Shown: positions 3,406 through 26,292 of the stretch, in pieces | How the letters are laid out: each line of letters starts with the position of its first letter | How positions within the stretch are numbered: position 1 is the first letter of the stretch | Assembly (NCBI RefSeq): GCF_900186995.1 | Contig: NZ_LT906463.1 | Coordinates: 1,302,001 to 1,366,000, forward strand | Length of the DNA: 64,000 bases | Direction: 5' to 3' | Source: Haemophilus pittmaniae | GTDB taxonomy: Bacteria > Pseudomonadota > Gammaproteobacteria > Enterobacterales > Pasteurellaceae | Made by a program: the position numbers and the translations under genes | Notes under the pieces: generated by a model | The model's input: the letters and a program-made list of their open reading frames with translations, nothing else | Told to the model about the DNA's origin: nothing | Databases searched by the model: none

Positions 3406-6400
3406 TTAATCCAACAGCGTTAATAATGCTTGTACCGGGTGTTTTAAGGTACGGTGGGCAAAACGTTTTACTTGGCTACGGCAGGAATAGCCGGTGGCCA
3501 AGCAAAATTCAGCATTTTGGCGTGAAAGTTTTTCGCCCCAGGACATGGCATAAATGTCGTGGCTCATTTCTTGGTTTTGAACTTCATGGCCAAATACCCC
3601 AGCCATACCGCAACAACCTACTTTTTCCACTTCCAATTGTTGCCCGAAAGCGGCAAAGATTTGTTGCCATTCCTTCGGACTGTTTGGTAATTGGGTGGAT
3701 TCGGTACAATGTGGGAAGAAATGCCATTCGGTATTTTTTGATTTAACTTCCACATGGAGTTTTTCCTGCCGATCGGTTTGCTTTATTTGTGCAAGTAGCC
3801 ATTCATGGGCGGTAAGTACATGGAACGTTCCGCGTTTTTCCGCCAAGATTTCCTGATATTCATCCCGATAGGACAGCACTATGGCCGGATCTACACCAAC
3901 CATTGGAATATCTAATTGTGCAAGGCGATTTAAAAAATCCGCCTGATTTTCAGCAATGTGGCTAAAATGCCCCAAAAAGCCTTTGATGTGCATGGCTTTG
4001 CCATTTGGTTTGAATGGCAGCAAAATTGGTGTAAAGCCTAATTTTCGACAGAGCGCAATAAAATCGGCAACCACTTTGGCATCATAATAAGAGGTGTAAG
4101 GATCTTGCACGATTAACAGCATCTTGGCTTTTTCCGCGGCACTTTTTTGTGCCAATGCATCGAGATTCGGCGCCTGATAACCTTGTTCATTTAGCTGGCT
4201 TTGCAAATTTGGCTGGGACAGGAGCGGTAAATCCGTCATGCCGATGGTTTTTTCGACTAAATTTTGAGTAAATTTCAACGAGGTAATGCGATTGAATAAT
4301 CCGGGTTGTTTAGCCAACCAAGGCGCAGCAATTTCTAAATTGGCAACCACGTAATCTTTTAATGGGCGCAAATAACGTTGATGATAAAAATAGAAGAACT
4401 TCGCGCGGAAACTCGGTACATCGATTTTAATTGGACATTGTGAGGCACAGGCCTTGCAGGCGAGGCAACTATCCATCGCGGCTTTTACTTCATGGGAAAA
4501 ATCATAATCGCCACGTTGTTTTCCTAAACTATTGCGCAGTTTGCCGACGAATTCGCTTAATTTGATTTTCGATTGACGGAAGTCCAGTTGTTCCGGTTGT
4601 ACATTTTCGTTAGCCATAAGGCGTAACCATTCACGCACCATCGCAGCCCGGCCTTTTGGTGAGAATACCCGATTGCGGCTAACCTTCATTGATGGACACA
4701 TGGTGCTGTGTTGATCAAAATTGAAGCACAAGCCGTTACCGTTACAATTCATCGCACCTTTGAATTCATCGCGTATCGCAATAGGAATTTGGCGGTCCTG
4801 ATCGGCTCGCATGGGCGAAAGAATGGAGTAGAGCTCATCTTCGCATTCTAGCGGTGTGCAAATTTTGCCCGGATTTAGGCGATTATGCGGATCAAATAGG
4901 AATTTGATGTAGCGTAGTTCACGCCATAATTCTGGGGTGAAGAAGGTTTCTCCATAGTGGGAACGTACACCTTTACCATGCTCCCCCCATAATAAACCGC
5001 CATATTTCGCCGTAAGTTCGGCGACTTGGTCAGAAATTGTTTTAAATAGCGCGACCTGTTCTTTGTCGCATAGGTCAAGTGCCGGCCGAACATGTAATAC
5101 ACCAGCATCCACGTGACCGAACATACCATATTGCAGATTGTGGGCATCCAATAGTGCGCGAAATTCGGCAATATAATCGGCCAAATGCTGTGGCGGTACG
5201 CAGGTATCTTCCACAAACGGAATAGGTTTAGCTGTGCCTTTGGCGTTACCCAATAAACCTACCGCTTTTTTACGCATGGCATAAATACGCTCAATCGATG
5301 GTAGATCATCACAAATTTGATAGCCAATAATGCCATCACTACCGGCAGCTATTTTTTCGTCCAATGCCTGGCATAACTTTTGCAACTGATGACTGATTTT
5401 ACTTTTATTATTGCCGGCAAACTCCACAATGTTGAGTCCAAGAATTGGGGCTTGTTCGTCTTCGTGTAATAGCTCTTTGACCGAATGCCAAATGATGTCT
5501 TGTTTGGCAAGATTCAACACTTTGGAATCTACGGTTTCTACGGATAGTGCATTAGCCTCTACCATAAAAGGAGCGCTGCGCAATGCAGCATCAAAGGAAT
5601 TGTATTTAATATTGATTAAGGTGCGATATTGCGGAATTGGTAATAAATTCAGTTTGGCTTCACAAACAAATGCCAATGAACCTTCTGAGCCGGTAATGAT
5701 GCGGGTGAGATTAAATTCGCTTAAATCATCATTAAAGACATTTTTTAAATCATAACCGGTAAGAAAACGGTTCAGCTGCGGCATATCATCGAGAATCGCT
5801 TGGCGTTTCTTTTTGCAACGATTGAAAATCAGCTGTGGCAAATTTTTACTAGTGCTTTGTTCCTGAGGGACATCATTAACTTGTTCTAATTGCTGGCTAG
5901 AAATCGAATCAGTATCTAACACTTCGCCATTAATTAATACGCTACGTAAGGCTAATACATGATTAGAGGTTTTGCCGTATTGTAATGAACCTTGACCGGA
6001 AGCATCGGTATTAATCATACCGCCTAAGGTTGCGCGGTTACTGGTGGATAGCTCCGGAGCAAAAAATAAACCATGGGGCTTTAAAAATTGATTGAGTTGA
6101 TCTTTTACTACACCAGCCTGTACCCGTACCCAACGTTCTTGCACATTGAGTTCAAGAATTTCGGTCATATGGCGGGAGAGATCAACAATAATATTGTGGT
6201 TAAGTGATTGTCCGTTGGTTCCGGTACCGCCACCACGCGGAGTGAAGGTTAAGGATTGGTATGTTTCCCGATTAGCTAATTTTGTTAGACGCACCACGTC
6301 TGCGACAGTTTTGGGAAACAAAATAGCTTGTGGTAATTGTTGGTAGACACTGTTATCGGTAGCTAAACTCAGGCGTGAAGCATAATCGGTGGCAATATCG

Positions 6401-17320: not shown

Positions 17321-20300
17321 TTAAACAGCTAATTCTTCCGCAATTTCCTCCGCTTGCTTAATCACATAGCTTACGGCTTCTTCCTGTTTATCCGGTGGGT
17401 ATTTATAACGCTGTAAAGCTCGTTTCACGAGAATACGCATTTTGGCGCGTACCCCTTCTTTATATTGCCAGTCGATGGTAACCGAGCGTCTTAAAGTATC
17501 GGTAATTTCTTTAGCGAGTTTACTCAATACTTCATCACCCATCAGTTCGCGGGCGCTTTGGTTTTGGGCGAGGGCTTCGTAGAAGGCGAGCTCTTCTTTT
17601 TTCAGACCCAGCTTTTCACCTAAAGCTAAGCGTTCTTGGAAGTCTTGGCTCATTTTGAAAAGCTCATCCAAAATTTCTACCACGCTTAAATTGTGGTTGT
17701 GATATTGATTTAGGGCTTCTTTTAAGCGCTGCTCGAAGTCTTTTTGCAATGTTAGATTCGCGCCTGATTTGGCTTTGATTTCGCTTGCCAAATAACGCTC
17801 CACCGCGCTAACCCATAAGTTCTTGGTCGGGCTGTTTTTAATAGTCTGCAAAAACTCTTCAGAAAGTAGACTAATTTGTGGTTGCGGTTTTTCCAACAGG
17901 TCAAATAAATCAATCACGCCTTCGGAATAGACGGCCTGATTGACCAATTTTTTCAATAAAATCTGTCTTTCATTAGAACCTGTACCATTTTGTTTGCTCT
18001 TCGTGAGAATAGCGCGTACGGCATCATAAAAGGCAATTTCTTGGTTGTATGGCTCAACTTCAGCCAATGCACCACATAGCATATAGCCTTTTTTCACCAA
18101 TCCCGCCGCTTTCAAAAAGGCTTTTTTGCGTGGCTCGGTTTCTTTTTTATTAAACCAGTGTTGTTCGTGCACTTTGCAATCAAACGGTAATTGATCGATG
18201 CTCAAAATATGGTTAGCGGCAAAACGAATTGCCATTAAAAGATCATGCGGATTATCTTTTTCTAAGGCCGTCTGAACATCAAAGGTTTTCCCTTCAACCG
18301 GCGTTGCAAACAGGCTGCGGACAAACTCTAAATGCTCTTTCATTTTAAAGAACACATCAATTACGTTATCCGTCAGCTTGCCCTTGCCTTGCGAATTAGT
18401 GTATTGCTGGGTTGCTTCTTTGAGTTTTGCGGCAATACCGACATAATCCACAATCAAGCCGCCATTTTCTCGGCTTTTATTACGGAATACACGGTTAACC
18501 CGCGCAATCGCCTGCATCAGGTTATGCCCCTGCATCGGCTTATCGATATACATCGTATTACAGCAAGGCGCATCAAAACCTGTCAGCCACATATCGCGCA
18601 CAATCACGACTTTCAGCGGATCGTTCGGGTCTTTAAAGCGGCGTTCCAGCGTTTGTTTTTCCTGTTTACTGTAAACGTGTTTCTGCATTTCCGGCGCATC
18701 GGAAGCAGAACCCGTCATCACAATTTTAATCGCCCCTTCGTTAATATTGTCCGAATGCCATTCAGGACGCAGTTTGATGATTTCATTGTATAAGTCCACG
18801 CAAATCTGACGGCTGGAAACCACCATCATTGCTTTGCTGTCGACGACTTCATTGCGTTTGGCAAAATGCTGCACAAAATCCGCGGCTAAATCAGCCAGGC
18901 GGGCTTGCGAACCCAGCAATTTTTCCTGCAAACGCAGGGCAGGGGATTGCTCCTCTTCCAGCAAATCATCAATTTCTTTGAATAGCTCATCGTGTTCTTT
19001 TTCGTTTAAGCGGATTTGGCGCGCTTCATACACAATCGGCACCGTTGCGCCATCTTCCACCGCATCTTGCAAGTCATAAATCGACACATAACGCCCGAAC
19101 ACATCTTGCGTGTCCTTATCTTCTAAGCTAATCGGCGTGCCGGTAAAACCGATAAACGAAGCATTAGGCAGCGCATCGCGCAAATGGCGGGCGTAGCCTG
19201 CCTGAAATTTGCCTTTATGCAATTTTTGCGTAAAGCCGTATTGGCTGCGGTGTGCCTCATCACTGATTACAATAATATTGCTGCGCTCATTTAAAACAGG
19301 GAAGCGGCTTTCTTCCTCATTTAGGGCGAATTTTTGAATCGTGGTAAAAAACACACCGCCCACTTCATTTTGCGCGAGCAGTTGGCGTAGTTGATCGCGG
19401 TCTTCCACTTGTTGTGGTGTTTGTTTGATTAAATCTTTTCCGGAAGAAAAGGTTTGGAAAAGCTGACCGTCCAAATCGTTGCGGTCGGTGACCACCACAA
19501 TAGTGGGATTTTTCAATTCAGGCTGCGCAAGCAGTTTGCCGGCATAAAACAACATGGAAATCGATTTACCCGAACCTTGCGTGTGCCACATCACACCAAT
19601 GCGGCGGTCGCCTTTTTCTGAAGTCGCCCAAATGGTGGAATCTACAGCTTCATTTACGCCGTAATATTGATGGTATGCCGCGATTTTTTTAATGGTTTTA
19701 CCGTTGGAATCCCGCTCAAATAAGACGAAATAGCGGATATAGTCCAATAAATCCTCAGGCTTCATCAAGCCATTGAGCAGGCTTTGCAATTCATCGTCAA
19801 AATATAAGCGCGCGCTTTGATTTTTTTCATCCACCACTTTCCACGGCGTAAAGCGTTGGAAATCAGCCGAAAGCGAGCCCAAACGTGCGGCAATGCCGTC
19901 TGAAATAATCAGGGTTTGGTTGTAAACAAATAGCTCGGCAATTTCATCTTTATAGGTTTCAAATTGATTAAACGCCTGCAACAAATCCGCCGATTCGCGC
20001 AACGGATTTTTCAGCTCAAATACCACCAAGGGCAGACCATTTACAAAGCCGATAATATCGGGAATCCGTTTGCCCCCTTTACGGCTGCGGATTTCCAGCT
20101 GATTGACGGCAACAAAACGGTTGTTTTCCCAATGCTCAAAATCCACCAAGCGCGCCATCTCGATTTTTTGCTCGCCGTCAGCCTGATATTCCACCCGCAC
20201 GCCATCGCGCAACAGTTTATAAAACGCCTGATTACGCACCACCAAGTCGCCAATATCGCTTTTTGTCGCGGCTTTGACCACAGAATCAACCGCACTTTCA

Positions 20301-20482
20301 GGCAGTTGCGGATTAAGTTTACGCACCGCCTCACGCAGTTGCTCAATAAAAACTACACCGCTCAAATCGCCACGGACAAACTCGCCTTCATGAACAGGCA
20401 AGTCTTTACCGTAGCGATATTCCCAACCGAGGGATTGCAGGCGTTGAAGGGTGAGTTGTTCGATATCGTTTTCGTTGAGCAT
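17321..20482 (-). CDS. hsdR: Type I restriction enzyme, R (endonuclease/translocase) subunit
   Basis: 1053-residue motor and nuclease subunit of the HsdR2M2S complex. It has an N-terminal PD-(D/E)xK nuclease (PD at 141-142, ELK at 156-158) and SF2 helicase motifs: Walker A GSGKS at 303-307 and DEAH at 408-411. A C-terminal helical region binds HsdM. The frame is intact. Two Neisseria-type uptake sequences lie in the coding region (18267-18276 and 19895-19904), the second extended to the 12-mer. That strongly suggests ancestry in a Neisseria genome. It lies downstream of the HEPN-like cargo gene with a 198-bp spacer, so it may have its own promoter. Confidence 0.95.
18267..18276 (+). repeat. 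Neisseria DNA uptake sequence core (GCCGTCTGAA) in hsdR
   Basis: Exact 10-mer of the neisserial DUS, foreign to the uptake dialect of this genome. Confidence 0.9.
19893..19904 (+). repeat. Neisseria 12-mer DUS (ATGCCGTCTGAA) in hsdR
   Basis: Exact match to the extended AT-DUS of N. meningitidis and N. gonorrhoeae. Confidence 0.9.
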
Positions 20483-20514
20483 GATAAGCTCCTTAGTGTA
20501 TTGGTTTTAAATAT

Positions 20515-20649
20515 CCCCTTTACGAAAGAGGAAAATAGTATTGGGCTTAATTTGGATTTATATGTTTTTTATTGGCAAATTTTTCTGCAAATCCGACCGC
20601 TTGTAATCAACAAACCTTCCAAATAATCTCCCTCTTTAGCAAAGAGAGG
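20515..20649. repeat. Paired CCTCTTT/AAAGAGG hairpins in the spacer before hsdR
   Basis: Two similar small hairpins, CCCCTTT-ACG-AAAGAGG (20515-20531) and CCTCTTT-AGC-AAAGAG (20631-20646), bracket an Apl-type uptake core (20596-20604, minus strand). The second is nested within AATCTC...GAGATT. Such hairpins resemble short intergenic repeats I recall from Haemophilus and Actinobacillus. They suggest the spacer was reworked after the island entered Pasteurellaceae. Confidence 0.5.
20596..20604 (-). repeat. Apl-type uptake signal (ACAAGCGGT)
   Basis: Minus-strand ACAAGCGGT followed by CGGATTTGCAGAAAAATTTG, matching the extended AT-rich pattern of the Actinobacillus-type signal. Confidence 0.75.
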
Positions 20650-20680
20650 ATAGGAGAGATTTGGTAAAGTTCATGAAATC

Positions 20681-21280
20681 TTATAACTGGTATTCGGTTT
20701 CTATTTCTTTCAATAATTCACATAAAATGATCTGCTGTTTTTCAATCAATTCTTTAATGTCAATGATTAGATCATTATAGTTTGTTTTATTACTGGCTAA
20801 ATTTTTGACTTTTTCATACAAACTTAATCCATTATCACTTTGATAATCATCGTTTTCAAAAGAGTAAGGCGAAAAGCTAAAAGTTGATAAGTAGCTAGCA
20901 ACAATACCAAAACCTTGTTTACCGTGTCGTTGACTTAAATCGACAGGATGAGCAAATATTTTATTTCTGAGTAATCTCACTATATCTAAATCGGGAATTG
21001 AGGCTATATCTAAATCTTTATTAAGCAATATTTTATAAATTACTTTTATTGCATGGGCTTCAGTTTCTGCCAAAGATATAATTCCATAACAATATATGTA
21101 ATTAAGACCTCTACCATTTTCATTTTTTAAATTTAGATAGCTATAAATTCCATCTTCAGCATCAGAAACAATATCCAACGCAGAACAAAGTAATCTATAA
21201 TTAGGTATATCGGTAGAAATTTTGTCATGCAAAATTCCATTTCTGATCTTATCAATGTAATCAATTACATTTTTATTCAT
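20681..21280 (-). CDS. HEPN-like protein encoded inside the type I RM operon (candidate anti-phage RNase)
   Basis: Predicted 199 residues, not matched to a named protein. I chose ATG 21280 over 21295 because GGAG lies 9 bp upstream and the start overlaps the hsdS stop by 8 bp. The protein is largely helical with no signal peptide. It contains RNGILH (R13-H18) and RNKIFAHP (R105-H111), the latter fitting the R-x4-6-H motif with a following Asn that defines HEPN ribonucleases. The segment YGIISLAETEAHAIKVIYK before it fits the helix preceding that motif in HEPN proteins. It is markedly AT-rich compared with hsdR and hsdM. The position between hsdS and hsdR is that of the anticodon nuclease gene prrC in E. 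coli. Nuclease activity is inferred; it could also be a non-catalytic HEPN. Confidence 0.7.
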   Translation of the reverse strand: MNKNVIDYIDKIRNGILHDKISTDIPNYRLLCSALDIVSDAEDGIYSYLNLKNENGRGLNYIYCYGIISLAETEAHAIKVIYKILLNKDLDIASIPDLDIVRLLRNKIFAHPVDLSQRHGKQGFGIVASYLSTFSFSPYSFENDDYQSDNGLSLYEKVKNLASNKTNYNDLIIDIKELIEKQQIILCELLKEIETEYQL

Positions 21281-22532
21281 TTTGAATATCTCCATTTAAT
21301 AATCTAGGCAATAATAAATCTCTTGTATCTTGAAGATTGAAATTTTCTAGCCTGTTAAAAATAATTTTTTCTAAAATATTTTCTAATGTTTTATTTGCTA
21401 ATAATTCATCATTTGGCACGATGCATTTCGCAGCAGATAAATGCTCACGTTTAATATGCCCCATTGTTACGGCTTTGTCGTAGGCAATACGCTGAAATTC
21501 AGCTAAATGATATTTGGTATAAAAATAGTAAAACCATTTAGGATATCTTTTAGATGTGACTTTGAATAAATGTTGGTTTAGTGCAGCTTTTCCACCACAC
21601 CAAATATCCACTAATAAACTTCCTGACCAAGAAAAAATCACATCGCCATTATCAATAATACATTCAGGCTTAATACTTGCTTTAGCTTTCTCTTCACCGT
21701 CGGCATAACCTTGTCTTAATTGGGCAATTTTCACAACAGGTAAAAATGGTTCGTCATCTTCAGGACGGAATTTTTGCAATGCTAAACCATTCTGATAATT
21801 TGCAATTTTATCCAAGGCTTTCAAATTCCACCCCTTCGGCACTTCAACCCCATCAATCTCCACTATCTCACACGGAAACGCTTTGGCGGTTTCGGCTAAT
21901 TCTGCGTAGCGGTCAGGCTGTGTTTGTGAAAGTGCGGTCAGTTCTTCGGGGGTTTTTCCGCTGATTGCCTGCATGGCTGCCAGCTCTGCTTGTTCAAGGC
22001 TAAGGCCGTCTGAAAGAGCTTGGACTTTGGCACGCACGGGATCGAAATCGACAAACCAACTTTTAAACAGGGCTTGGGCGATTTGTTCCAAGGTTTGGTT
22101 GATTTGGGTGTTGAGATCTATTTTTTGGTCAAAACTAAGCAAAATTTCCCCAACTTTTATTTTGTTGATATTTAAATCAGGAAGAGAAATAGATTTTAAA
22201 ATAGTTTGATTTAAAAGAGGTTGGCCAGATCCTACACGCATGCTATTTAAATTTAAGGATTTTAAATAATAAAACCAAAAAATACTTTCTTTTAAATTCA
22301 TACTTCTTGCAGATATTGCATTATCTGTTACCCAACATTTCTTATCTGAAAAATGTACACTTCCACAATATGAGCCAACTCTTCCAATAATAATTGTATT
22401 TTCATCAGAGTTATATTCAGATGAATAACCAATTATTCCGTTAGCCCCATAGACAGGATAAAAACCAGTATCAGTTCTGTTTGGTGAAGTTTTTCCATTA
22501 GAAAATTTCAGGTGTTGCCCTAAGTTACTCAT
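21273..22532 (-). CDS. hsdS: Type I RM specificity subunit
   Basis: 419 residues in the usual two-repeat layout. A first target-recognition domain (1 to about 130) is followed by a conserved helical spacer (ILLSFDQKIDLNTQINQTLE...KSWFVDFDPV). The second recognition domain spans about 225-375, and the closing helix ends DLLLPRLLNGDIQNE. Each half dictates one part of a bipartite target, which cannot be predicted here. It overlaps hsdM by 8 bp and the HEPN-like gene by 8 bp, so all three are translationally coupled. It contains a neisserial DUS at 22005 and a Hin-type uptake core at 21930. Recognition-domain sequences are more AT-rich than the central region, as expected for shuffled domains. 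Confidence 0.92.
   Translation of the reverse strand: MSNLGQHLKFSNGKTSPNRTDTGFYPVYGANGIIGYSSEYNSDENTIIIGRVGSYCGSVHFSDKKCWVTDNAISARSMNLKESIFWFYYLKSLNLNSMRVGSGQPLLNQTILKSISLPDLNINKIKVGEILLSFDQKIDLNTQINQTLEQIAQALFKSWFVDFDPVRAKVQALSDGLSLEQAELAAMQAISGKTPEELTALSQTQPDRYAELAETAKAFPCEIVEIDGVEVPKGWNLKALDKIANYQNGLALQKFRPEDDEPFLPVVKIAQLRQGYADGEEKAKASIKPECIIDNGDVIFSWSGSLLVDIWCGGKAALNQHLFKVTSKRYPKWFYYFYTKYHLAEFQRIAYDKAVTMGHIKREHLSAAKCIVPNDELLANKTLENILEKIIFNRLENFNLQDTRDLLLPRLLNGDIQNE
21930..21938 (+). repeat. Hin-type uptake signal (AAGTGCGGT) in hsdS
   Basis: Exact 9-mer, 67 bp from a neisserial DUS, so both dialects occur within one gene. Confidence 0.85.
22005..22014 (+). repeat. Neisseria DUS core in hsdS
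   Basis: Exact GCCGTCTGAA in the conserved central region of hsdS. Confidence 0.9.
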
Positions 22533-24285
22533 ACCCCAATCCCCCTAAATTCTTCTTAATCTCCGCTTCCAATTCCGCACTTTTCGCAAATTGTTCCTTC
22601 AAAAGAGCGGTCAGATTTTGCATTTTTTCTGCAAAAGGTACGCCGTCGTCTTCTTGTTCTGCGGTGCCGACATAGCGTCCCGGTGTGAGGACGAAGTCGT
22701 TGTCTTTCATCTCTTCTAAAGTGGCGGATTTGCAGAAAGCGGCTTGGTCTTCATAGCCGTCTGATTGTTGCCAAGTGTGGAGGGTATCGGCGATTTTGGC
22801 GATGTCGTCAGCGGTGAAATCACGCAATACGCGGTCTTTCATATAGCCGATTTGGCGGGCGTCGATAAACAATACTTTGCCTTGACGCTTTTTGTTGCGG
22901 TTTAAGAACCAAATACAGGCGGGGATTTGGGTATTGGTGAAGAGCTGGCCGGGCAGGGCGACCATACATTCCACCAAGTCGGCATTGATGATGGCTTTGC
23001 GGATTTCGCCTTCGTTGTTGGTTTGGCTGCTCATGGAGCCGTTGGCAAGCAACAATGCCATTTTGCCTTTTGGCGAGAGGTGGTAAATCATGTGTTGCAG
23101 CCAAGCGAAGTTGGCGTTGCCTTTCGGCGGTGTACCGTATGCCCAACGTGGGTCGTCGGCCAGGGATTCTCTCCACCAATCGCTGATATTGAAGGGTGGG
23201 TTTGCCATGATGAAATCCATCTTTTTGTCGATGTGTTGCGGCTGGGTGAAGCTGTCGGCGTTGTGTTTGCCGAAGTCGTAATCAATGCCGCGAATCGCCA
23301 TATTCATGGCGGCGAGTTTCCATGTGGTTGGGTTGAATTCTTGCCCGTAGATGGAAACGTTGTTGATGTTGCCTTGATGAGCGGTGATAAAGCGTTCGGT
23401 TTGCACGAAAAAGCCGCCGCTGCCCATGGCCGGGTCATATACGCGGCCGGAGTATGGCTCGAGCATTTCGACAATCAGGGAAACAATGGATTTCGGCGTA
23501 AAATATTGTCCGCCGCGCTTGCCTTCGGCTTGGGCAAAGCGACCGAGGAAGTATTCGTAAACGTGGCCGAGAATGTCTTTTGCGCCCAAATGTACAGGCT
23601 CGCCGTTGTAAGTCGGACGGGTAAAGTTGGTATCGGAGAAGAGGATAATCAGCCCGCGCAGGGTGTCTTCGTTTACGGCATAGCCGCTGATGCGTTGGAG
23701 TACGCCTTTGAGTTTTTCGTTGTCTTTTTCAATGGCATCGAAGGCATCGTCAATCAGTTTGGCTACGCCGGAAAATTTCCCGCCCCAAGGCAGCTCTGCG
23801 CCAATGTTTAAGATGGAAACGGCTTTAATCTCGTCCCAACGGGCTTGCTGCGGCACCCAGAACACATTGTCGGCGGTGTAGTAGTCGCGGTTTTCCAGTT
23901 CGGCTGTTAAGGCTTCTTGATATTCTTCTTCGGTGTCGTAAAAAGTGCGGTCAAGATAGAGTGGATTTTCGGGATCGCTCAGCTCCGCCTGAATTTTTTC
24001 CTGCTGATGAGTGAAGCTGTCGGAGATGTATTTAAGGAAAATTAAGCCGAGTACGATGTGTTTGTAATTGGCGGCATCAAGCTGCTGGCGCAGTTTATCG
24101 GCAGATGACCAAAGTTTTTCGTCTAGATCGTTTAGGAAGGCTTGTTGTAAAGCGGGGTTATCAAGCGCATTTTTAGTGGTTTCTGCATAAAATTTATCCT
24201 CGGTAAAGTATTTTTTGCTAAAAATCTGAGATGGATCGCAATTCAGGTATGATTGCCGGTTATTTTCGGTGATTAAGACGGGCAT
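22525..24285 (-). CDS. hsdM: Type I RM DNA adenine methyltransferase subunit
   Basis: N6-adenine methyltransferase subunit. The N-terminal helical domain (NPALQQAFLNDLDEKLWSSADKLR) is followed by the SAM-binding motif DPAMGSGGF and the catalytic motif NPPF. The ATG at 24285 gives 586 residues; the frame runs on to a TTG at 24321. Even from 24285 about 40 residues precede the usual family start near ALDNPALQQ, so the N-terminus is either extended or its start is uncertain. First gene of hsdM-hsdS-HEPN-hsdR. A Hin-type uptake core lies at 23943, and a partial DUS (GCCGTCTGAT) near 22755. Confidence 0.92.
   Translation of the reverse strand: MPVLITENNRQSYLNCDPSQIFSKKYFTEDKFYAETTKNALDNPALQQAFLNDLDEKLWSSADKLRQQLDAANYKHIVLGLIFLKYISDSFTHQQEKIQAELSDPENPLYLDRTFYDTEEEYQEALTAELENRDYYTADNVFWVPQQARWDEIKAVSILNIGAELPWGGKFSGVAKLIDDAFDAIEKDNEKLKGVLQRISGYAVNEDTLRGLIILFSDTNFTRPTYNGEPVHLGAKDILGHVYEYFLGRFAQAEGKRGGQYFTPKSIVSLIVEMLEPYSGRVYDPAMGSGGFFVQTERFITAHQGNINNVSIYGQEFNPTTWKLAAMNMAIRGIDYDFGKHNADSFTQPQHIDKKMDFIMANPPFNISDWWRESLADDPRWAYGTPPKGNANFAWLQHMIYHLSPKGKMALLLANGSMSSQTNNEGEIRKAIINADLVECMVALPGQLFTNTQIPACIWFLNRNKKRQGKVLFIDARQIGYMKDRVLRDFTADDIAKIADTLHTWQQSDGYEDQAAFCKSATLEEMKDNDFVLTPGRYVGTAEQEDDGVPFAEKMQNLTALLKEQFAKSAELEAEIKKNLGGLGYE
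23943..23951 (+). repeat. Hin-type uptake signal in hsdM
   Basis: Exact AAGTGCGGT followed by C. A one-mismatch version (AAGAGCGGTC) with an AT-rich tail lies near 22605. Confidence 0.8.
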
Positions 24286-24426
24286 TATTCTATAGAAAAA
24301 ACAAAGGGTAACAAATAGCAATTGGCTGAAACAGGAAAATAAATAGAGTCAATAGGGAGAATTGGAATGCGCCATGGCTAAGGCTGGAAGACTTGATTGT
24401 TGCTAAATGTTTATTTTTTAAATCAA

Positions 24427-24547: not shown

Positions 24548-24771
24548 CCGCAACGTAGAGGTGCGGACATTATAAGTAGTTATTTGGAGCGGATAGCGGA
24601 GATGAATAACGAAAGGAATGGCCGCCGAAATCGGTTGAAAGTCATTTTGACTGGTTGGTAGCGTCTTCGAAAGGAACGTTACTGTCATAGTTTTTCACTA
24701 TGGAGCGCTACGGTGAGTCTTTTCTTTGTTTTCTTGCCTGCCCGCGCTCCATTAAGTTATAGGATAACCTA
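24548..24771 (+). promoter_or_regulatory. Lysine riboswitch (L box) with expression platform
   Basis: P1 pairs CGTAG (24554-24558) with CTACG (24708-24712). Conserved core segments appear in order: GTAGAGGTGCGGAC, AAGTAG, TTTGGAG, AACGAAAGGAATGGCCGCCGAA, GACTGG and CTGTCATAG...CTATGGAG. Downstream, GCGCTCCAT (24744-24752) can pair with ATGGAGCGC (24700-24708) in the aptamer 3' side, an evident switching helix. GTTATAGGATAAC places the ribosome site in a small hairpin next to the start, pointing to control of translation. Confidence 0.9.
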
Positions 24772-26292
24772 ATGGATCTTATCGATTATTCTTCTTCAAT
24801 TTGGTCTATCGTACCGCCTTTATTGGCGATCGTGTTGGCCATCGCAACCCGTCGTGTATTAATTTCACTGAGTGCGGGGATCGTTATTGGTGCATTGATG
24901 TTGGCGGGTTTTAATCCGTTGAATGCATTCACCTATTTAGCCAAAAACGTGGCGGCGTTGGTGTATGCCGATGGCGAAATCAACTCCAATATGAACATTA
25001 TTCTGTTCTTATTATTGCTTGGAGTGTTAACGGCATTGTTAACCGTTTCGGGCAGTAATCGTGCATTTGCCGAATGGGCACAAAGTAAGATCAGAAGTCG
25101 TCGCGGTGCGAAATTATTAGCCGCCTGCTTGGTGTTTGTTACCTTTATCGACGATTATTTCCACAGCTTGGCGGTGGGGGCAATTGCCCGTCCGGTGACC
25201 GACCGTTTCCGCGTTTCACGAGCGAAATTGGCCTATATTTTAGACTCCACCGCAGCACCAATGTGTGTAATGATGCCGGTATCCAGTTGGGGGGCGTATA
25301 TCATTTCATTGGTTGGTGGTTTATTGGTGACTTATGGAATCACTGAATATACCCCAATGGGCGCCTTCGTAGCGATGAGTTCAATGAACTTCTACGCCAT
25401 TTTCTCTTTATTAATGGTGTTCTTTGTCGCTTACTTTTCCTTTGATATCGGCACCATGGCGCGTCATGAGAGCTTGGCCATGGAACGTAGCGATGACGAG
25501 GAAGAGGCAATTGATGGCGTGAAAGGTAAAGTGATTAATTTGATTTTGCCAATTGTAGTGTTAATCATTACCACGGTATTTATGATGCTATTCACCGGTT
25601 ATGAAGCCTTAGCTGCCGATGGTAAAGCTTTTAGTATTTTAGGCGCATTTGAAAATACCACGGTGGGAATTTCATTGGTCTTTGGTTCATCCTGCGCGGT
25701 ATTAGTATCTACCTTGTTGATTATTTGGGAACGTCAAGTTGGCGTGAGCGAATATTTCAAATCTTGGTGGATCGGTATCAAATCCATGTCTGGCGCGATT
25801 GCGATTTTATTCTTCGCTTGGACTATTAATAAAGTGGTGGGCGATGCGCAAACCGGTAAATATCTCTCTTCACTAGTTACCGGCAATATTCCGGTAGAAT
25901 TCCTACCAGTGTTGTTGTTTATTTTGGGTTGCTTAATGGCATTCTCCACCGGTACCAGCTGGGGAACCTTCGGGATTATGCTACCGATTGCCGCTGCTAT
26001 GGCTAGCAATAGTGCACCGGAATTGTTATTACCTTGTCTTTCTGCGGTGATGGCAGGAGCGGTGTGTGGTGACCATTGTTCTCCGGTTTCCGATACTACG
26101 ATTTTGTCTTCAACCGGTGCGAAATGTAATCACATTGATCACGTTACCACTCAATTACCTTACGCGGGTGCGGTTGCTGCAGCAACGGCGATTGGCTATG
26201 TGGTTGTTGGGTTTAGTCTGTCAGGTTTGGCAGGATTCATTGCCACAGGTGTAAGCTTGGCATTAATCGTATTCATTGTGAAAAAACGCTAA
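24772..26292 (+). CDS. lysW: NhaC-superfamily transporter, probable lysine transporter LysW
   Basis: 506-residue inner-membrane protein with about 12 membrane segments. It shows the NhaC-family blocks DDYFHSLAVGAIARPVTDRF, STGTSWGTFGIM and CGDHCSPVSDTTILSSTGAKC. By sequence alone it would be called a Na+/H+ antiporter. The lysine riboswitch directly upstream argues that it moves lysine: comparative genomics of the L box assigned the name LysW to riboswitch-linked NhaC-like transporters in gamma-proteobacteria including Pasteurellaceae (established knowledge, recalled). Expression should rise when lysine is scarce. Monocistronic, with a terminator following. Confidence 0.82.
   Translation: MDLIDYSSSIWSIVPPLLAIVLAIATRRVLISLSAGIVIGALMLAGFNPLNAFTYLAKNVAALVYADGEINSNMNIILFLLLLGVLTALLTVSGSNRAFAEWAQSKIRSRRGAKLLAACLVFVTFIDDYFHSLAVGAIARPVTDRFRVSRAKLAYILDSTAAPMCVMMPVSSWGAYIISLVGGLLVTYGITEYTPMGAFVAMSSMNFYAIFSLLMVFFVAYFSFDIGTMARHESLAMERSDDEEEAIDGVKGKVINLILPIVVLIITTVFMMLFTGYEALAADGKAFSILGAFENTTVGISLVFGSSCAVLVSTLLIIWERQVGVSEYFKSWWIGIKSMSGAIAILFFAWTINKVVGDAQTGKYLSSLVTGNIPVEFLPVLLFILGCLMAFSTGTSWGTFGIMLPIAAAMASNSAPELLLPCLSAVMAGAVCGDHCSPVSDTTILSSTGAKCNHIDHVTTQLPYAGAVAAATAIGYVVVGFSLSGLAGFIATGVSLALIVFIVKKR

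Follow-up and report, generated by a model that had tools for sequence, protein, structure and literature searches.

Within a 64,000-nucleotide stretch of Haemophilus pittmaniae DNA (contig NZ_LT906463.1; hereafter the window, whose coordinates we use), a gene for a protein of 199 residues lies between hsdS and hsdR of a type I restriction-modification (RM) operon (20681..21280, minus strand). We refer to this gene and its product as the cargo. On balance we favor the explanation that the cargo is a compact, metal-independent ribonuclease (RNase) of the HEPN type acting as an anti-phage effector, and that it occupies the hsdS-hsdR slot of a HindI-like operon as an exchangeable cassette. The cargo would be translated from a ribosome-binding site within the 3′ end of hsdS and expressed with the restriction operon; upon infection, the RNase would probably cut host and/or phage RNA and stop growth. 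We thus infer for the cargo a HEPN fold, RNase activity, an anti-phage role, toxicity and a phage trigger. Two versions of this explanation, differing in how the RNase would be triggered, are weighed below, and the remaining weight falls on another activity or on none.

Conservation and predicted fold of the cargo

A Pfam scan of the cargo gave no family match, and PADLOC (E 0.0057 and 0.013) and NCBIfam (E 0.07) returned weak matches of unrelated kinds, with no fitting family among them. Searched as a single sequence against 5.8 billion proteins, the cargo found 11 relatives, and an alignment query containing six distant relatives, all of the same bacterial family, found 129 in the same collection. 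The cargo was aligned with the 120 listed proteins of these 129 and six locus proteins, giving 127 members (86 of the 120 are contained in alignment A3). A77 is an A in all 127 members, H111 is an H in 126, R105 and R102 are each an R in 125, D40 and D36 are a D in 124 and 121, respectively, and N106 is an N in 119. HEPN domains are defined, in a survey, by a conserved Rx4-6H motif that typically has a polar residue following the R (PMC3710099), and R105-N106-x4-H111 of the cargo fits this definition, with the polar N after the R. The predicted catalytic segment, from codon R102 to H111 as delimited by conservation and the structure model, occupies 20948..20977 (minus strand). The original prediction, made from the letters of the DNA, had named two R-x-H motifs. 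The second is this segment; the first, RNGILH, is present in the letters, but its H18 is an H in only 6 of the 127 members. RNGILH was therefore rejected as a catalytic motif, which leaves R-N-x4-H as the sole catalytic-looking one. It is very improbable that the cargo is a passenger gene with no defense function: no characterized homologue was found among the matches, as a passenger might have it, but the residues listed above are near-invariant across the family, the homologous frames are open, without stops, in all seven genomes of the bacterial family that carry one, and in four operons the gene directly follows hsdS.

The structure model of the cargo is confident (predicted local distance difference test, 92) and contains a helix spanning residues 96-110 that is followed by H111. 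The same survey places the HEPN motif at the end of helix 3, with the histidine opening the loop to helix 4 (PMC3710099). R105 and H111 occupy this position in the model, at the end of helix 3 by our numbering of the helices. In a second look at structures, the best rows were the HepT entries 7ae6, 7ae8 and 7ae9. Similarly, HepT, AbiU2, Abi_C and DUF4145 were best among 14 families compared by hhalign, yet with probabilities under 5% (the sets held 23 of 30 HepT loci, with L115 and L134-L139 omitted, three of four AbiU2 loci plus three slot proteins, and 14 of 18 DUF4145 loci). No HEPN protein appeared among the 30 Foldseek rows for the cargo model, BFVD gave no match at E ≤ 0.001, and the best hit of the A3 profile among solved structures, searched by sequence, was a non-HEPN protein at E 0.04. 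The AbiU2 profile was reached weakly by 3 of 87 members, with a best E of 0.011 that lies below cut-off level. The fold and profile comparisons lean to HEPN but are weak. Taken with the near-invariant R-N-x4-H where helix 3 ends, they moderately support the HEPN-like character first proposed, and judged by sequence and model the cargo is a probable HEPN RNase from a family not yet described.

The hsdS-hsdR slot in related genomes

The ATG of the cargo at 21280, which is also the start in the records of close relatives, lies in an 8-nucleotide overlap with the end of hsdS (21273..21280, minus strand). A Shine-Dalgarno sequence, GGAG (21290..21293, minus strand), is found 9 nucleotides ahead of the ATG within the 3′ end of hsdS, where it falls in the G-D codons of the tail LLNGD. 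The gene had been likened in position to prrC, and this is correct; however, the position proves to be a slot filled by many unrelated genes, Gabija and SIR2-HerA among them, so that position alone is no argument for a PrrC-like guard.

We examined this slot in 140 genomes of the bacterial family, taken as Pasteurellaceae because proteins of two of them (G003 and G009) have identical counterparts that carry Actinobacillus names. HsdR matches (E ≤ 1e-100) were present in 70 of the 140. Operon stretches were drawn from 65 genomes, leaving aside partial or contig-edge matches (G012, G015, G084, G117 and G120) and the second match of G068, and 58 of the 65 were readable (at L109 no HsdR start was found, and six others, at a contig end, were without hsdS). 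An open reading frame of at least 80 residues, the smallest size counted, separates hsdS from hsdR in 57 of the 58 operons, and none of the 58 was seen to have an empty slot. The shortest hsdS-hsdR distance is 791 nucleotides and the median 1396, although some hsdS ends, set by profile matches, look wrong or odd (L053, L057, L065, L091 and L094). The first slot gene has a median GC content of 0.278, below that of the first 300 nucleotides of the same operon's hsdR at all 57 loci. In 50 of the 57, a Shine-Dalgarno-like word precedes a possible start of this gene between -31 and +20 nucleotides from the hsdS stop, as scored by a permissive list of seven 4-mers without a shuffle control, and in 48 of these 50 the word lies inside the hsdS tail. 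A pattern resembling LLPxLL[NS]G occurs in 53 of the 57 tails; because such a tail is common among HsdS proteins, the ribosome-binding site within it may be incidental. The hsdR gene itself is interrupted by a stop or split in three related genomes (G114, G111 and G128).

Known or candidate defense genes occupy the slot. Among the slot proteins scanned (20 by Pfam, 10 by PADLOC), representatives match FRG (PDC-S15), Fic, SIR2_2, HEPN_AbiU2, Abi_C and Abi_2; a ThsB-TIR gene next to a membrane-type partner, GajA with GajB (Gabija), and SIR2 with HerA were also found. Matches to PF05168 HEPN and DUF3644 fell below cut-off, and the remaining representatives scanned had no or weak family matches. 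The gene after each of the two multigene systems, GajA+GajB at L073 3056-6172 and SIR2+HerA at L075 1579-4202, falls into a cluster with the slot Fic genes. Genes with no or weak family match, for example those at L051 498-1151, L068 518-1489, L076 6450-7178 and L089 318-1145, are candidate new defense genes.

The contents of the slot turn over. By manual tally, the first genes belong to nine families in the 14 genomes (L045-L057 and L086) that share at least 92% HsdR identity with the window; for G128 the figure is 94-95%, over an HsdR in two pieces. The C-terminal part of the window HsdS recurs in operons with other cargos, at 92.5% identity over 160 residues in G081 (L017/L048), which has an AbiU2-type cargo, and at 94% over 150 residues in G063 (L025/L056), which has a SIR2 cargo. 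Conversely, G064 and G063 have the SIR2 cargo in common and differ in this part of HsdS. This pattern of sharing indicates that cargo and specificity reassort, and the cargo gene is one allele of an embedded defense slot. DNA uptake sequences as drivers of cassette exchange were not supported, as two 9-mers that we take to be such sequences have a density of 0.33 per kb within slots vs 0.56 per kb upstream, with one present in 22 of 58 slots.

The slot form of the cargo and its relatives elsewhere

Homologues of the cargo were found in 7 of the 140 family genomes. In the genome of the window and in G121, G088 and G134 the gene directly follows hsdS and has hsdR on its other side, all three in one orientation, whereas in G003, G008 and G009 a shorter homologue lies between hisB and hisH. 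No match to the window HsdR was found at E ≤ 1e-100 in the latter three, a result that does not exclude other RM systems there. In these three genomes of one genus the shorter relative stands alone within the histidine operon (L011 7839-8372, L012 8071-8610 and L013 7959-8417), an odd home for a predicted toxin. Class surveys with the queries A2 and A3 each found relatives in 2 of 369 genomes, the genome of the window included. A plasmid search with the cargo gave no match, viral contigs and genome contigs searched with the query A1 gave none, and neither did phage records, searched solely with the long form P0022.

Outside the RM slot, all relatives whose surroundings were read are either standalone or in the his operon. 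Long forms of about 308 residues occur at six loci in varied neighborhoods (Enterovibrio, Psychromonas, Thalassolituus, Methylophaga and two cyanobacteria), and two of these six reading frames are short or interrupted. One long-form locus lies about 5 kb from an hsdM-like gene, and plasmid pMAQU01 carries a long form with a SIR2 family gene about 3 kb away. In the model of a long form (P0023, mf05acdd98a2b) the N-terminal part is similar to the cargo and an extra C-terminal four-helix bundle spans residues 186-306; these C-terminal ~120 residues match general four-helix bundles, and the best 50 of its 363 Foldseek rows contained no HEPN protein.

The slot members differ from other relatives at two places in the alignment. 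The first is the region between F136 and I173 (residues 137-172; 20765..20872, minus strand), which contains an insert of about 20 residues: the gap between these positions is 33-38 residues in 16 members and at most 20 in the other 111. The 16 are the four slot members and P0001-P0012, which are known from sequence, their genomic context unread. The second is a QQD triad, kept by all 111 members that lack the insert and by none of the 16 that have it, at a position that reads E-A-H in the cargo (codons 74-76; 21053..21061, minus strand). Among the 16 insert members, D is found at its position in one, the first Q in five and the second Q in none. The QQD count may be inflated since relatives were found via shared 5-residue words, LQQDA among them. 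In a midpoint-rooted tree of 47 rows, built from the first 230 residues of each, all four slot members fall in one clade of 15 rows with support 92/92 (not starred by the program). The insert and the lost QQD would look like an adaptation to the RM context, yet one clade cannot separate adaptation from descent.

The changes in this clade also bear on catalysis. Many HEPN families, though not all, have an acidic residue in helix 2 near the motif, and here it is a D in 111 of 111 members without the insert and in 1 of 16 with it. Its loss from the insert clade would suit a non-catalytic HEPN-like protein that binds RNA or regulates, for example a modulator of hsdR expression. However, R105, N106 and H111 are retained in 16 of 16 insert members, and we regard a non-catalytic role as unlikely. 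E74, an E in 10 of the 16, could be a substitute acidic residue.

Models for control of the cargo

If the cargo is an anti-phage RNase, what keeps it in check may be the restriction complex. As a guard, it would be bound by HsdRMS, perhaps via the insert, and so be kept off; phage inhibition or titration of the complex would then free it, stopping translation or growth. The gathering of the slot members in a single clade with its insert and lost QQD, the overlap with hsdS and the ribosome-binding site inside it agree with this model, and PrrC, described as an RM guardian (PMC12707154), is a precedent. The HEPN survey likewise reports a link with RM systems for at least 16 HEPN clades, for which it suggests a PrrC-like release (PMC3710099). 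Against it, the same slot holds Gabija and SIR2-HerA, the C-terminal part of the window HsdS (92-94% over 150-160 residues) is common to operons with other cargos, relatives occur without this type of RM, and the insert and residue changes could reflect descent within one clade. A guard is thus possible but the less probable version. In one operon with a cargo homologue (L009), 39 copies of the 5-bp repeat ACAGC lie in the 5′ part of the hsdM reading frame (4631-4827); the RM system there is probably phase-variable, and HsdM-dependent silencing of the cargo would consequently be risky in OFF cells.

Alternatively, the HEPN cargo may be an autonomous effector that senses a phage component or the stress of infection, with the RM operon giving it a promoter, a ribosome-binding site and a ride. 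Gabija and SIR2-HerA are thought to act on their own. Their presence in the slot, the ~308-residue forms in varied neighborhoods and the short form in his operons without an HsdR match fit this view. So does TgvAB, which lies inside a type I RM system of V. cholerae and still protects with HsdR cleavage disabled (PMC11411939). In contrast, the slot form differs from other relatives in its insert, its lost QQD and its lack of the C-terminal bundle of the long form, suggesting adaptation to the slot. We give autonomy close to an even chance and lean slightly towards it over release from the RM complex. Three observations favor it: Gabija and SIR2-HerA also enter the slot, some relatives do without this RM, and the cargo does not follow HsdS specificity. 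What still speaks for a guard is the distinctive slot form. A broader scheme is a long shot: the HindI-like RM system would be a shared sensor with a plug-in socket, in which HsdRMS holds and releases unrelated HEPN, SIR2, TIR, FRG and Fic effectors encoded behind the ribosome-binding site of the hsdS tail, and the HEPN family would have been rewired from a free-living form (no C-terminal bundle, QQD lost, an insert docking on the complex).

Relation to known systems

Like PrrC of the E. coli prr locus (EcoprrI), the cargo is embedded in a type I RM operon, is a predicted HEPN RNase and may have a guard role; unlike PrrC, which combines an N-terminal ABC ATPase with a C-terminal HEPN nuclease, it has 199 residues and no Pfam match to an ATPase, its size and lack of such a domain being as originally described. 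PrrC itself is silenced by HsdRMS, is freed by an anti-restriction peptide and cleaves tRNA-Lys. HepT (PF01934), of HEPN-MNT pairs, gave the best structural rows and the best profile match, and its R-N/R-D aligns with the R-N of the cargo motif. However, the similarity is weak, the cargo differs by short strands and by one more helix beyond the motif, and it is flanked by hsdS and hsdR rather than by a nucleotidyltransferase; no such antitoxin gene is adjacent to the window cargo, and for the other slot members the neighbors were inspected visually, without an MNT scan. The motif also aligns in register, including the H, with HEPN_AbiU2 (PF18734). AbiU2 and Abi_C (PF14355) proteins fill the same slot in related genomes, whereas the cargo is a different sequence family.

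Defense genes embedded in type I RM operons include DarTG2 in the RRDM island of enteropathogenic E. coli (EPEC) and TgvAB in V. cholerae VPI-2. These are other proteins, and the present slot differs in being filled in nearly all operons of one family, usually with a ribosome-binding-site-like word inside hsdS. DarTG2 lies between hsdS and hsdR in EPEC, a site termed a potential recombination hotspot (PMC12255303). A further candidate for a natural hsdS-hsdR case was set aside, as it concerns a laboratory cassette (PMC9577141). HEPN-RM linkage and hsdS-hsdR embedding are therefore already published. What appears new is the cargo family, the form it takes in the slot and a slot that is almost never empty; our literature search, whose coverage left out most subscription papers and preprints, found no description of the family or the slot. 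Payne and colleagues have reportedly worked on embedded defense genes. If our explanation is correct, one more HEPN-like family, still unnamed, joins those known, and nearly every copy of a common restriction operon in one bacterial family bears an additional defense-type gene that is exchanged quickly, so that the operon seems to offer a socket into which further anti-virus weapons can be plugged. It would also provide a list of candidate defense genes at one fixed address and, in the slot form vs the forms elsewhere, a clean pair for asking how an RNase might come under restriction-enzyme control.

The operon and its surroundings in the window

The predicted gene order hsdM-hsdS-cargo-hsdR, all on the minus strand, agrees with the coordinates and Pfam matches of the three hsd genes: hsdM, the methyltransferase subunit (22525..24321; PF02384 and PF12161; true start uncertain), hsdS, the specificity subunit (21273..22532; PF01420 in two stretches), and hsdR, the restriction subunit (17321..20482; PF04313, PF18766 and PF11867). 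The cargo is single-copy in its genome and, as had been noted, more AT-rich than its neighbors, with a GC content of 0.277 vs 0.455 for hsdR and 0.49 for hsdM (0.417 for the window). No tandem repeats were found in the window operon. A spacer of 198 nucleotides (20483..20680, minus strand) separates the cargo from hsdR and contains a weak terminator-like hairpin at 20628-20648; counts of promoter- and terminator-like sites in the region were within the spread of shuffles. Beside the hsd operon, a lysine riboswitch (RF00168, 130.9 bits) is present on the plus strand at 24548-24718, upstream of the gene at 24772.
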